A DNA stretch of 64,000 nucleotides from Candidatus Thalassarchaeum sp. GTDB taxonomy: Archaea; Thermoplasmatota; Poseidoniia; Poseidoniales; Thalassarchaeaceae. How positions within the stretch are numbered: the stretch's first letter is position 1; each line of letters opens with the position of its first letter. The stretch is taken from the NCBI GenBank assembly GCA_022449345.1, contig JAKURL010000003.1:34082-98081 (forward strand). The letters run 5' to 3'. Position numbers and translations under genes: made by a program. Of this stretch, positions 48,977 to 55,297 are shown piece by piece. The notes under the pieces were generated by a model. That model searched no databases and was not told where the DNA came from. It saw only the letters and a program-made list of their open reading frames with translations.

Positions 48977-50587
48977 ATGTACAACGGTCAACAGCCAATA
49001 TTCATCCTCAAAGAAGGCACCACTAGAACTAGTGGAAAGACTGCTCAAAGCAACAATATCGCGGCTGCAAAAGCGGTATCTGACGCGGTTAGAAGCACCC
49101 TTGGTCCAAAAGGTATGGACAAGATGTTAGTCGACGCAATGGGCGATGTAGTCATCACAAACGATGGTGCTACAATCCTAAAGGAGATGGACATCGAACA
49201 TCCTGCCGCCAAAATGATTATTGAAATCGCCAAGACTCAGGAGCAGCACTGCTTCGATGGTACAACAAGCGCTGTTGTAATCGCTGGAGAATTACTCAAG
49301 CGCAGTGAAGATTTAGTCGAGCAAAACGTTCACCCTACTGTAATCTGTGAAGGCTTCAGACTTGCTTCAGACAAGGCAGCAGATCTAATCGATTCACATG
49401 CAATAGATGTCAATGAAGATAGATTACATGAGGTTGCAAAAACCGCTCTGACTGGAAAGAGTGCAGGTGCGGTCAAGGAATTTCTTGCCGACATATCGGT
49501 TAAAGCAGTACTCGCGGTAGCTCAAGATACCGATGATGGAGTGGTTGTAGACCTAGACGACATCAAGATAGAGAAAAAGCAAGGCGGCTCAATCAAGGAT
49601 AGCGCACTGGTTGACGGAATTATTCTCGACAAGGAGAGAGTTCACTCTGGAATGCCTCGCTCAATCGCAGATACCAAGGTTGCTTTGATTAATTCAGCGA
49701 TCGAGGTCAAGAAGACTGAGGTCGATGCAAAGATACAGATTACAGATCCAAATATGCTAGCTCAATTCCTCGATGAAGAGGAGTCCTTCCTCAAAGGCTT
49801 GGTTGACACGATCATCGCTAGCGGCGCTAATGTTGTCATTTGCCAGAAGGGAATCGACGACTTAGCCCAACACTACATGGCAAAGGCCGGTCTATTCGCC
49901 ATTCGCCGAGCAAAGAAGAGCGATATGGAAGCACTTTCCAAAGCGACTGGTGGAAATATCGTCACAAATATCGACGATCTCAGTGAGGGCGACCTTGGTC
50001 AAGCAGCCAAGGTCGAAGAGCGAAAGATTGGCGATGCGGACATGGTATTCATCACAGGGTGTCCTCAAGCCAAGAGCGTCAGTGTATTGCTGCGTGGCGG
50101 CACTGAACACGTAGTCGACGAAATCCGTCGAGCATTCGACGATGCGGTAGGTGTTGTTGCAGTTGCACACGAAGATGGAGCTGTCTTGACAGGCGGTGGT
50201 TCTGTGTTGGCAGCGATTAGCCGAGACCTTCGTTCCTATGCAGAGGGAATCGGTGGTCGAGAACAGATGGCTATAGAGGCGTTCGCGGGCGCTCTAGAGG
50301 TAATTCCACGAACCCTAGCCGAGAACGCCGGTTTGGATCCAGTTAACACCATTATTGACCTTCGCAAGGCACATTCCGAAGGTCTCTCTTCACATGGAGT
50401 AAACGTCTACGACGGTGGAGTTGTAGACATGGTTGAGAGCAAGGTCTACGAGCCAAGCCGAGTCGTTGAGCAGGCTGTGCAAAGTGCATCCGAGACTGCG
50501 GTAATGATTCTCAGAATCGACGATGTAATTTCCAGCAAGGGCGGTGGAGGAGCCGACCCTGCTGACTTCGATGGCTTCGATATGTAG
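48977..50587 (+). CDS. Thermosome subunit (group II chaperonin)
   Basis: [61 protein letters not shown]...PADFDGFDM. Confidence 0.97.
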
Positions 50588-50682: not shown

Positions 50683-52656
50683 ATGGCTATCGTCAGCGTC
50701 TATATCGAAGAAGGATGTATCACCTGTGATGCCTGTGAAGAGACGCTTCCAGAAGTCTTCCACGTTACGGACGATACCTGCTACATCAAGGCCGACGTTA
50801 GGCTCGATGGAGGCTACGACCAGAATGAGGGTAAGGCCGGACTAAAGCCAGAAACCATTTCTCAATTCCACGACGATATTCTAGATGCAGCCGATGGCTG
50901 TCCTGTGGATGTAATTATCGTTGTAGAGGCCGGAGAAGCAGAGGCTGTAGTCGAGGAAGAAGCACCTGCTGCAGCCGAAGAAGTCGCTCTGGAGCCAGCG
51001 ACCGAAGAGCCCGTTGAGGTGGCTGGAGACGACCTTGGTGAACTGCTCAGTGCTGGCGATCGCAGCCTAGCAATTCTATTTGGTTCCCAATCGGGTAACT
51101 CAGAGGCTTTGGCTGCTAAGTTTACCAAGCAGGCGTCAAATTATGGCCTTGACGGAGTAGTCTACGATATGGATGGTTTTGACTTCGGCTCCCTGTCTGG
51201 AATGAAGCGGGTTCTCATCGTCTGCTCTACTTGGGGCGAGGGCGAGATGCCCGACAATGCCGAAGACCTCTGGCAGACAGCTCAGAAAGCATCTGCTGGC
51301 TGTCTAAATGGAGTTCATTACTCAGTCCTAGCACTTGGAGATACAAGTTATGAGTTCTTCTGCGAATCTGGAAAAGATTGGGATGAGATATTTGAGAAGT
51401 TAGGTTCTACTCGCGTTGTCGACCGCGTTGATTGCGATGTCGATTACGAAGCCCCAGCAGATACTTGGGCCCTCGATGCTTTGGCCACTATGGCGGCGGT
51501 CGATGGAAATGGTATCTTCCACGAAGATATGGTTGAAGCGATCAAGGCCTACGCCGCTGGTGGCGATGATGGAGTCGAGGGTGAAGATGGATTCACCATT
51601 CCAGACATTAGGGCAGAGCCAATTCAGGCGGAAATCACCATCTTCCGCTACCACCCAGAAGCGGCATCTACCGGTTCGGATACTTGGGTTTGCGCTATAC
51701 CTGGTCACTTGAGCCTGTTAGAGGCTCTTCGAACCATCAAGAGCACCCACGACGGTAGCCTCTCTTTCCGAGATGGTGCTTCGGATGACCCAACCACAGC
51801 GATTTGCGTCAATGGACGCTTAGTGCTACCTGGTATGGTTCGCTTGGACTCAGTAGCACCAACTCGCGATGGAACGCTACGGTTGCGAGTTGACCCATTA
51901 CCTGGATTCGATGTAATCCGCGATCTAGTCATCGACCACTGGTCGATGGAACGCAGAAGAGAATTCACTCAACCTTGGATGGTTGCCGCAACCCGAGAAG
52001 GGGTCGCTACCATGCAAGGCAACATGGGTGTGATGGACTCTAATGTTGCAACTACTTTACACTCGATGACAGACTTCGGTAGCCCTGCTTTACTGCAAGC
52101 ATCCTCAGACGCAGTCCCCCATGCAAATGGCTACCTCGGCCCTGCGGTCTTAGCACCAATTTGGGCAAGGCGAAATGACCCTCGTTCCGCCCCATCATCA
52201 ATCAGCAACCTAGACGAAATACTAGGAAGTTCAAATGGAATCAAGGCAGAGACAGACTTAGCCAGTATCCGTAGGCAAAACGGCTCCGGCCTAGTAGTAT
52301 CAGAAGCCTTACTAGACGCTAAGACCCATGTCTTGGAGCGAGATGCATTCAATGGTCGACATGGAAAGCACGTCTGGTGGTATACGTGGACTCTCAAGTC
52401 GAGCGGCAAGGTAAACGATACCGTGCTCTATCGTCAGGTCTTGGGGCCAATCGGTCTTCTCGGCAACTTGACTTCAGGAGTCACCGCTCGAATGCTTAGC
52501 GGCTTCACTCGTACAGGTGGAGACATGTTCTACGATATGCTCGCCTTGGTCGCTCCACCAGCAGGCGTTGGAAAGATGCCGCGTCAATTCAATTCATCAG
52601 TAGGAAATCACCATGAGGTCGTGGCGATATTCAACGAGTTAGATGGGAGATTCTAA
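50683..52656 (+). CDS. Ferredoxin-flavodoxin-SdhB-like fusion protein; SdhB module lacks cluster cysteines
   Basis: [4Fe-4S] ferredoxin CITCDACEE...GCPVDVI; flavodoxin ILFGSQSGNSEALA..STWGEGEMPDNA..LALGDTSY; then SdhB-like EITIFRYHPEA...SLSFRDGASDD...RVDPLPGFDVIRDLVIDHW...YLGPAVLAPIWARRNDPRSA. Confidence 0.85.
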   Translation: MAIVSVYIEEGCITCDACEETLPEVFHVTDDTCYIKADVRLDGGYDQNEGKAGLKPETISQFHDDILDAADGCPVDVIIVVEAGEAEAVVEEEAPAAAEEVALEPATEEPVEVAGDDLGELLSAGDRSLAILFGSQSGNSEALAAKFTKQASNYGLDGVVYDMDGFDFGSLSGMKRVLIVCSTWGEGEMPDNAEDLWQTAQKASAGCLNGVHYSVLALGDTSYEFFCESGKDWDEIFEKLGSTRVVDRVDCDVDYEAPADTWALDALATMAAVDGNGIFHEDMVEAIKAYAAGGDDGVEGEDGFTIPDIRAEPIQAEITIFRYHPEAASTGSDTWVCAIPGHLSLLEALRTIKSTHDGSLSFRDGASDDPTTAICVNGRLVLPGMVRLDSVAPTRDGTLRLRVDPLPGFDVIRDLVIDHWSMERRREFTQPWMVAATREGVATMQGNMGVMDSNVATTLHSMTDFGSPALLQASSDAVPHANGYLGPAVLAPIWARRNDPRSAPSSISNLDEILGSSNGIKAETDLASIRRQNGSGLVVSEALLDAKTHVLERDAFNGRHGKHVWWYTWTLKSSGKVNDTVLYRQVLGPIGLLGNLTSGVTARMLSGFTRTGGDMFYDMLALVAPPAGVGKMPRQFNSSVGNHHEVVAIFNELDGRF

Positions 52657-52665
52657 GGTGTGAAT

Positions 52666-53526
52666 ATGGCTGTTAAGTACGCATATCATCCCGGAAATGT
52701 GTCGCACAGCAGTGCACCCGAGGTCGCTACCACAATGGATTCCTTCGCGCGCGCGGTGGGCATTACGCTAGTTCCTTTGGATGAAGCCACTAGTTGTGGC
52801 GCGGGGATTGTTCGACAGGCTAACCGCAGGCTGCAACTGACCCTCAATGCCCGAACTTTTGCTATGGCTGAAGCAGAAGGTCTGAACATACTAACTCCTT
52901 GTGCGGCCACTGCAGGAAATCTGCAAGAGGATTTGATGACACTCAAATCAGATCAGATTTTGATGCAAGAAGTCAATGAGACACTTCAGAACACCTGTGG
53001 GTTAACCATGACAGGTGAAGTTGAGGTTCACCACTTGCTGCACGTTATTGTTGACGAAATCGGATTAGACAAACTTGAGGAGAAGGTTCGCAATCCACTA
53101 GATTTTGCAATCGCTGGCTATTATGGTCCAAATATCCAGCAAGAAGGCGCTTGTGGAGGAGATGACGTCTACGATCCAAATTACCTAGAACAAGTGATTT
53201 CAACGCTCGGTGGAACCCCTGTTCGATGGGAAGCGAGGACTCAGAGCGTTGGTGTGCCCGGATTATTCAGTGAAGAGCCGACAGTCATGAAACAGGCTGC
53301 TGAGGCTCTGTCAGAAGCCAAATCAGAGGGTGCTGAACTAATTGTTAGCGCTTGCAACCTTTCGCACGCAGTTCTCGATATCTACCAAGGAAAAGCTGGT
53401 CGAAATACTGGTCTTTCAACAAATATCCCGGTAATCCACCTTTGTGAAATGCTCTCATTCGCGCTAGGATGTCATAACAATCGACTAGCGATGCTAAGGA
53501 CCAGAATCGCAGTAATTGGCGATTGA
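52666..53526 (+). CDS. SdhE/HdrB (CCG-domain)-like protein with depleted cysteine motifs
   Basis: KYAYHPGNVSHSSAPEVATTMDSFARAVGITLVPL...LTPCAATAGNL...VNETLQNTCGLTMTGEVEVHHLLHVIVDEIGLDKLEEKV..PLDFAIAGYYG aligns by eye to SdhE/HdrB. Confidence 0.8.
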   Translation: MAVKYAYHPGNVSHSSAPEVATTMDSFARAVGITLVPLDEATSCGAGIVRQANRRLQLTLNARTFAMAEAEGLNILTPCAATAGNLQEDLMTLKSDQILMQEVNETLQNTCGLTMTGEVEVHHLLHVIVDEIGLDKLEEKVRNPLDFAIAGYYGPNIQQEGACGGDDVYDPNYLEQVISTLGGTPVRWEARTQSVGVPGLFSEEPTVMKQAAEALSEAKSEGAELIVSACNLSHAVLDIYQGKAGRNTGLSTNIPVIHLCEMLSFALGCHNNRLAMLRTRIAVIGD

Positions 53527-53539
53527 TTTCTCAAGCGAT

Positions 53540-55297
53540 TCATTCGCCACTTGAATTGAATTGTTCAAGTCCTGTTTGACCTTTCGGCCTGAAAGTGGAT
53601 GGTGATAATTTTCGAGAGTCTGTTGATTCCGTTTGTTCAGGGGTTTGTTGAACTTCACTCAGTACAGGCCTATGTTTTTCTCGGACTGCAATTATGAATT
53701 CGGATGCAGGAATTTCCTCATCACCATCGCCGACCGAGAAATTATCCAAGTTTGATAGATCAACATGAGTGCTGCGAGCCAGTTTCCGTCCTACTCTTGC
53801 TACTGCTCGATGCATATTTTCTTCACGACGAATAGCTGCTGCCCTAGCGCCTTCGTCACGAGTATCTTCAGCGATTATAACCACAACATCACCATCACGA
53901 TGTCTACCTGTTCTGCCTCTTCTCTGAATTGTACGAATTTCGCTCGGAACCGGCTCGTAGAAAATCACCAAGTCGGCGGTAGGAATGTCGAGCCCCTCCT
54001 CTCCTACGCTAGTTGCAATGAGCACATTGCCTTCTCCGAAGCGGAACGATTCGATACGCTCGATTTGTTGTTTTGGCGTCAAACCGGTTCCGCTCGCACG
54101 TTTGCTTTGGCCAATGAATTGGATTGGTTTAGCATCCGGTAAATCTGCTAGAGCGGTGTCAAGAGCCGTTACCGTGTCTCTATAAGTTGCAAAGATGATT
54201 ATTCTCGAATCAGGGTCGCGACGAAGTCTTTCCCTCACCAGCCTTCTTACTGCACCAACTTTACTGTGTATTTCTGGCATTTCCCTGAGACTTCCCCTAA
54301 GTTCTCTGACACGTGAATCCCTGAGTAAATTTCGAGTGTTTTTCTTTTCTGCATCTTCTCCGGTTTCCTTTCGATCTAGGAATTCTCTTGCTGCGGCTAT
54401 ACCTTGACAAAGCAAGTGGTTGATTAGGTGGTGAAGTGACATGGCTAGGCCAATTCGACTCATCGACCCATAGGCGTCAGATTGACCTCTTCTGACCGCC
54501 AAATTAGCTCGCTCCATGGCGTTGGCAAGGCCTCTATGAGTCACCGCACCTGGTATCACGTACCTGCCTAATCTTCTCTCCCTATCGACAATGGTTTCCT
54601 GCCATAGAATGAAAGGTTCTGCTAGTTCACGAATTTCGTCTGGAACCCTGACTATCAATTCTTCAATGTCGAGGTTCGCTAGGTGTTCAGAAAGCATATT
54701 GTCTTCTGAAGTTCGTAAATGAATTCGGCCCACTTGTAGCCTGTTACAAATTTCTTCGACTTTCTCAGAGTTTGAACCTGGGCTTGCTGTCATTCCGAGA
54801 ATTAGTGGTTCATCCGCAAGCCCGAGATATAGGTCCGCAACTTGCGCCTCAGCGCGTTTTCCAGTTGAGTGATGAGACTCGTCGATTACCAGCAAGCAAC
54901 AGTCCGAGAGGTTGAGTAATCCTTTATTGACATCATTGCGAACAACCTGAGGTGTGGAGATAACCAATCTACCCTTGTTCCACATACCCTCTCTCTTGGA
55001 AGGCGGAATTGCTCCACTCATCGCAATCGGTTGTGTTGATTCTTTGTCGAAAACTGATTCAAGGTCGTCGAGATGCTGTTTGACTAAGGCGGCGGTCGGG
55101 GCGATCATTAATGCCCAGCCATCACTTCGCCGAAGCATCTCGGCAATAACCATCCAAGCTACTGCAGTTTTTCCAGCAGCCGTTGGTAGAACCAAAAGTG
55201 TTGAACCAGACAGCGCAACATCGACGGCTTCTAGCTGATATGCCCTAGCCTCGATGACTCCGTCTCGGAGTCCGTCGTGGTGAAGACTAGCGCTCAT
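53540..55297 (-). CDS. Hef-type SF2 helicase (no nuclease domain in this ORF)
   Basis: LPTAAGKTAVAW, VIDESHHSTG, GMTASPGS, ATSVGEEGLDIPTADLVIFYEPVPSEIRTIQRRGRTGR. Confidence 0.85.
   Translation of the reverse strand: MSASLHHDGLRDGVIEARAYQLEAVDVALSGSTLLVLPTAAGKTAVAWMVIAEMLRRSDGWALMIAPTAALVKQHLDDLESVFDKESTQPIAMSGAIPPSKREGMWNKGRLVISTPQVVRNDVNKGLLNLSDCCLLVIDESHHSTGKRAEAQVADLYLGLADEPLILGMTASPGSNSEKVEEICNRLQVGRIHLRTSEDNMLSEHLANLDIEELIVRVPDEIRELAEPFILWQETIVDRERRLGRYVIPGAVTHRGLANAMERANLAVRRGQSDAYGSMSRIGLAMSLHHLINHLLCQGIAAAREFLDRKETGEDAEKKNTRNLLRDSRVRELRGSLREMPEIHSKVGAVRRLVRERLRRDPDSRIIIFATYRDTVTALDTALADLPDAKPIQFIGQSKRASGTGLTPKQQIERIESFRFGEGNVLIATSVGEEGLDIPTADLVIFYEPVPSEIRTIQRRGRTGRHRDGDVVVIIAEDTRDEGARAAAIRREENMHRAVARVGRKLARSTHVDLSNLDNFSVGDGDEEIPASEFIIAVREKHRPVLSEVQQTPEQTESTDSRKLSPSTFRPKGQTGLEQFNSSGE

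Follow-up and report, generated by a model that had tools for sequence, protein, structure and literature searches.

We found that a conserved gene pair of the marine Poseidoniales (Marine Group II) is, by its sequence relationships, an orphaned and iron-stripped SdhB–SdhE pair, because relatives in the same phylum carry sdhA–sdhB–sdhE operons with every cysteine in place. Interchangeable electron-carrier domains are attached to one of its two proteins. The window, the whole 64-kb stretch of DNA that we analysed, comes from a Poseidoniales genome of 1.47 Mb and holds the pair, here called A and B, in the following arrangement (positions are those of the window):

48977–50587, forward strand: thermosome subunit, the conserved upstream neighbour
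50683–52656, forward strand: gene A, ferredoxin–flavodoxin–SdhB-like, the partner of B (profile matches, neighbourhood comparison)
52654–52668, forward strand: A/B junction, with the TAA stop of A, a GGTG motif resembling a ribosome-binding site and the ATG of B
52666–53526, forward strand: gene B, SdhE/HdrB-like, with no cluster site left intact; 286 aa when read from ATG 52666 (profile matches, AlphaFold, Foldseek)
53540–55297, reverse strand: Hef-type DEAD helicase, likewise a conserved neighbour, downstream and on the opposite strand to A and B

The gene order thermosome–A–B–helicase was fixed across the order wherever contigs reach. B was found in 163 of the 195 genomes of the class, in both Poseidoniales families but not in the third family sampled; for the relatives, the family names used here (Thalassarchaeaceae, f1; Poseidoniaceae, f2) were inferred from named records. 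The locus was already known by synteny, since a survey reports the same neighbours, named there succinate dehydrogenase cytochrome b subunit and sulfite reductase flavoprotein (PMC6741140). Although the frame of B is open from GTG 52660, translation likely starts at ATG 52666, where a previous reading made from the sequence only had placed it, because a GGTG lies 5 nt before this ATG, behind the stop codon of A. That reading had also described two intact frames a few bases apart, and we observed the same: both frames are open and the close stop and start suggest that A and B are probably translationally coupled. TGAGGTG is the usual form of this junction in relatives. One genome encodes a natural A–B fusion (L063:2371-5331) in which flavodoxin, flavodoxin, SdhB-like domain and B follow one another in a single frame of 997 aa from stop to stop.

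The assignment of B to the SdhE/HdrB family was borne out by profiles and by structure prediction. B matched the HdrB profile TIGR03288 at 1.5e-36 (126 bits, against a cut-off of 345) and NF042965, the SdhE of methylmenaquinol:fumarate reductase, at 1.1e-32, far below the equivalog cut-off; the Pfam family PF22196 (HdrB-like_C) was weakly matched by 13 of 77 B members. The AlphaFold model of B (pLDDT 89.6) adopts the HdrB fold over its whole length, with TM scores of 0.86–0.88 to solved HdrB chains by Foldseek (0.88 at 27% identity for HdrB of heterodisulfide reductase; 5odc, 8rvu). In contrast to HdrB, B lacks the ligand sets for the two noncubane [4Fe-4S] clusters that do the chemistry, and the A–B locus contains no HdrA or HdrC gene.

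We aligned B with full-cysteine SdhE proteins from sdhA–sdhB–sdhE operons of the same phylum. Numbered from GTG 52660, the canonical cysteine positions are 13, 45, 46, 81, 84, 157, 196, 197, 232 and 235, with the YGC site placed to within one residue. The window's B retains three of these ten (C46, C81 and C232), and its motifs have changed from YYPGC to YHPGN, CCG to SCG, CxxC to CAAT, YGC to YGP, CCG to SVG and CPLC to CNLS. All six eroded motifs, and the count of three cysteines out of roughly ten, had been read correctly from the sequence beforehand. A cysteine set that is merely shifted was rejected, as the alignment contained no compensating offset. The altered sites of the window's B include:

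52696–52698, forward strand: Asn13, in place of the first CCG-domain cysteine (YHPGN); every eroded member of either family has this Asn
52792–52797, forward strand: Ser45-Cys46, in place of the CC of CCG (SCG); in Poseidoniaceae, residue 46 is Asp
52900–52911, forward strand: Cys81-Ala-Ala-Thr84, a CxxC remnant; Cys81 invariant in the order
53353–53364, forward strand: Cys232-Asn-Leu-Ser235, a CPLC remnant; Cys232 invariant in the order

Among the non-canonical cysteines of B, C165 alone is widely conserved (GACG; window positions 53152–53154), being found in most members of both families.

B is under strong purifying selection. Its dN/dS within the genus was about 0.03–0.045, and that of A 0.05–0.07, both where dS was measurable and both approximate, as synonymous sites are near saturation. 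Thirty-six residues of B are invariant, and its frame was open in all but one of the matches listed, the exception having one TGA. Loss of catalytic ligands in both A and B might have indicated ordinary decay towards a pseudogene, but the low dN/dS, the open frames, the conservation across the order and the fixed replacement residues refute it and leave it vanishingly improbable. These results agree with the previous proposal of a functional change and not decay.

A combines three domains:

50683–50937, forward strand: [4Fe-4S] ferredoxin domain with all four cysteines (CxxCxxC...CP; CITCDAC...CP in the window)
51064–51498, forward strand: CysJ-type flavodoxin (FMN) domain (PF00258, 1.9e-30, over the cut-off)
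51613–52653, forward strand: SdhB-like domain with all Fe-S cluster motifs lost (profile, alignment, Foldseek)

The cysteine motifs of the [2Fe-2S] cluster and of the two further SdhB Fe-S clusters, present in phylum relatives, were lost in A of all members that we examined. By contrast, the ferredoxin cysteines were kept in the window and in relatives wherever A has a ferredoxin domain, so that the cysteine loss previously noted for A applies to its SdhB-like domain and not to its N terminus. The CysJ-type FMN-binding motifs of the flavodoxin are kept across the order. The alignments of A and B were built with in-frame read-through references. An AlphaFold model of the A–B read-through was weak (pTM 0.50); its parts matched HdrB, FrdB and flavodoxins in Foldseek. 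Because of this low score we claim no A–B interface.

The closest relatives of A–B that we found were SdhE genes next to SdhB genes in operons of the same phylum, and the best homologues of A and of B adjoin each other in these operons. The pair thus resembles SdhB–SdhE of type-E succinate dehydrogenase and of 8-methylmenaquinol:fumarate reductase (NF042952, NF042965) in adjacency, in folds and in the C-terminal extension of SdhB, which the SdhB-like domain of A shares with SdhB of phylum relatives. It differs from them in that no sdhA lies alongside, all SdhB cluster cysteines and 7 of the 10 SdhE cysteines (window) are lost, and a ferredoxin and a flavodoxin have been added to SdhB. No SdhA was detected at the A–B locus, the SdhA matches of this genome being on other contigs. 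A–B is unlikely to be this genome's succinate dehydrogenase, because an SdhA and an SdhB that bears cysteines are encoded separately, on another contig.

The cysteines were lost in steps. Absent in every Poseidoniales member examined were the SdhB cluster cysteines of A and the C-terminal cluster cysteines of B except C232, so that no B examined has the two complete CCG-domain sets of SdhE. By contrast, the N-terminal set of B (positions 13, 45, 46, 81 and 84) was all-or-none: 12 of 77 aligned sequences, which come from some genera in each family, have CCCCC, and the remainder carry a set of fixed replacements, N-S-C-C-T among the Thalassarchaeaceae and N-S(or G)-D-C-S/A among the Poseidoniaceae. 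Both subunits have lost cysteines, but the parallel, coordinated loss previously proposed is not supported as a single event. Within B, the full or eroded state is accompanied by changes in seventeen columns, the ligands among them; as the ligands change with a dozen further columns, the loss of the B cluster is, on this sequence pattern, concerted.

How the eroded form spread depends on the tree that is used. On the thermosome-plus-helicase tree, our proxy for the species tree, the full/eroded state changed at least four times. The rooted B tree needs a single change: the full members branch off at its base, and the eroded ones form one clade (SH-aLRT 99). One possible explanation for this difference is that eroded and full B are old alleles that were spread by horizontal transfer, in place of repeated loss. 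L162 points the same way: it belongs to a genus with full B, yet its B nests in the eroded clade of another genus, which looks like a transfer of eroded B into a full-B genus. However, with the 17 co-changing columns excluded along with the cluster positions, monophyly of neither Thalassarchaeaceae (AU p 0.40) nor Poseidoniaceae (0.31) was rejected. We regard old alleles as a real but tentative option, one that is compatible with any of the functional readings below, and repeated loss and some transfer may possibly both be true.

The most variable part of the pair, missed by the previous reading, is the N terminus of A, where ferredoxin, flavodoxin and no carrier replace one another. On the species-proxy tree, the N-terminal domain (ferredoxin, second flavodoxin or absent) changed about 19 times, or 14 times for ferredoxin/flavodoxin alone; a few loci represent the same genome fetched twice and add no changes to this count. 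All three states occur among the closest relatives of the window: ferredoxin in L037, flavodoxin in L045 and none in L036. The N-terminal flavodoxins grouped mostly by family and apart from the core flavodoxins, which suggests that a few cassettes were exchanged, with some local duplication. The N-terminal carrier is dispensable, since some members have neither a ferredoxin nor a second flavodoxin there. The A members without an N-terminal carrier domain include L036, L050, L053, L138, L141 and L143; in L053, flavodoxin stretches sit in a separate upstream ORF.

All 11 scorable loci with a full B carried the ferredoxin, and the loci with an eroded B carried ferredoxin (42), flavodoxin (30) or no carrier (9). 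This association comprises just four independent pairs (p at least 0.125) and does no more than suggest that Fe-S loss in B is linked to ferredoxin loss in A. The trend is consistent with iron saving. More generally, the lost Fe-S sites and the repeated exchange of ferredoxin and flavodoxin suggest, as a reading of sequence patterns, selection for less iron, for oxygen tolerance or for both.

The sequences themselves establish where the pair comes from, which cysteines it has lost and which fold is predicted for it, as well as the selection on it, the fixed pairing of its genes and the swapping of its domains. A and B derive from the SdhB–SdhE pair of a type-E (SdhA–SdhB–SdhE) succinate dehydrogenase, with the loss of SdhA and of the pair's own Fe-S wire. 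On function, we propose with a probability of about 0.5 that A–B serves tethered one-electron carriers as a docking scaffold. The two proteins would remain in complex with each other, B and the SdhB-like part of A being used for docking and no longer as a wire. Redox work would fall to the carriers tethered in the N-terminal half of A, always a CysJ-type flavodoxin, with a ferredoxin, a second flavodoxin or nothing beside it, and the N-terminal positions of A would be sites for interchangeable one-electron carriers.

Two other functions would keep redox chemistry in the SdhB–SdhE-derived part. B might itself be a redox or metal enzyme, fed by the carriers of A, in which the leftover C46 or D46, C81, C232 and H236 form a new site (mononuclear metal or thiol/disulfide). 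C81 and C232, the first cysteines of the CxxC in each CCG repeat, do not vary within the order, the two families have Cys and Asp, respectively, at position 46, either of which could bind a metal, and N13 is fixed in eroded members. However, C81 was part of one cluster and C232 of another, and in full-cysteine B members they are also simply ancestral; we consider such an enzyme rather unlikely. Alternatively, A–B could still be an electron wire, with clusters held in A or B by unusual ligands, as in EtfD (9ojn; PMC13083937). Like B, EtfD is a CCG-domain protein with altered cluster ligands: it has Thr for one CCG cysteine and holds a linear [3Fe-4S] cluster, and its authors discuss the change as a possible adaptation to aerobic life. 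Full-cysteine B members could likewise hold one cluster. EtfD, however, is a membrane protein with clusters in both CCG domains and retains four cysteines at the altered site, whereas the B of the window has no intact site, the first CCG domain of eroded B proteins keeps two cysteines (Thalassarchaeaceae) or one (Poseidoniaceae) and their second CCG domain a single one, and A retains none of the SdhB motifs. A surviving wire is thus quite improbable.

If A–B is a docking scaffold for carriers, a plausible candidate for its partner is the route by which electrons would pass from 2-oxoacid:ferredoxin oxidoreductase to a complex I without its NADH subunit, NuoF. This genome encodes NuoD and the oxidoreductase, and NuoF was found neither in it nor in 45 of 47 near-complete relatives; complex I is suggested by this absence and by general logic. 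NuoF-like matches occurred in only two of the 47 near-complete Poseidoniales (G045:C20:102582-103727 and G026:C12:7897-9045), both below the family cut-off. The Flavodoxin_1 domain of A was the only one found in this genome, and 31 of the 47 near-complete relatives had a single flavodoxin match. A similar set of components (2-oxoacid oxidoreductase, flavodoxin and NuoF-less complex I) is found in Campylobacterota, whose complex I without NuoEF is thought to accept electrons from flavodoxin or ferredoxin (review, PMC6682613). There, however, NuoXY take the place of NuoEF and the flavodoxin is a protein in its own right, whereas for A–B this is a candidate role only. In its most specific form, A–B would be the Poseidoniales electron-input module replacing NuoEF, a de-ironed scaffold on complex I fed from 2-oxoacid oxidoreductase via tethered ferredoxin or flavodoxin, with the carriers repeatedly exchanged as iron supply changed; we view this version as speculative and doubtful.

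To our knowledge, no SdhB–SdhE pair has been described that lost every cluster site and had carriers added and exchanged; the parts themselves are known, and single CCG-site changes had been reported in EtfD (PMC13083937). Our literature search found no paper joining Marine Group II, flavodoxin and heterodisulfide reductase, and no account of cysteine loss at the A–B locus. The pair matters as an iron-sulfur electron-transfer module that has persisted throughout an order despite the removal of its clusters, and whose stepwise intermediates are still alive in sister genera, in one of the ocean's most abundant archaeal groups. Exchange of ferredoxin and flavodoxin in place, in one protein and at least about 14 times in one plankton order, offers a natural experiment on iron economy versus oxygen tolerance, and A–B is a candidate electron donor for NuoF-less complex I.

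Foldseek also aligned an uncharacterized H. pylori protein, 3kwl, a single protein, over much of the A–B model. On this model-based comparison it may be a structural analogue; homology was rejected because the likeness is one of structure alone (sequence E value 0.52). Finally, the neighbouring Hef-type helicase differs in length within the order, with copies of between about 580 and 930 aa. The copy in the window has 585 aa and, among the homologues compared (L060, L065 and L066), lacks the C-terminal ERCC4-nuclease-like stretch present in L060.
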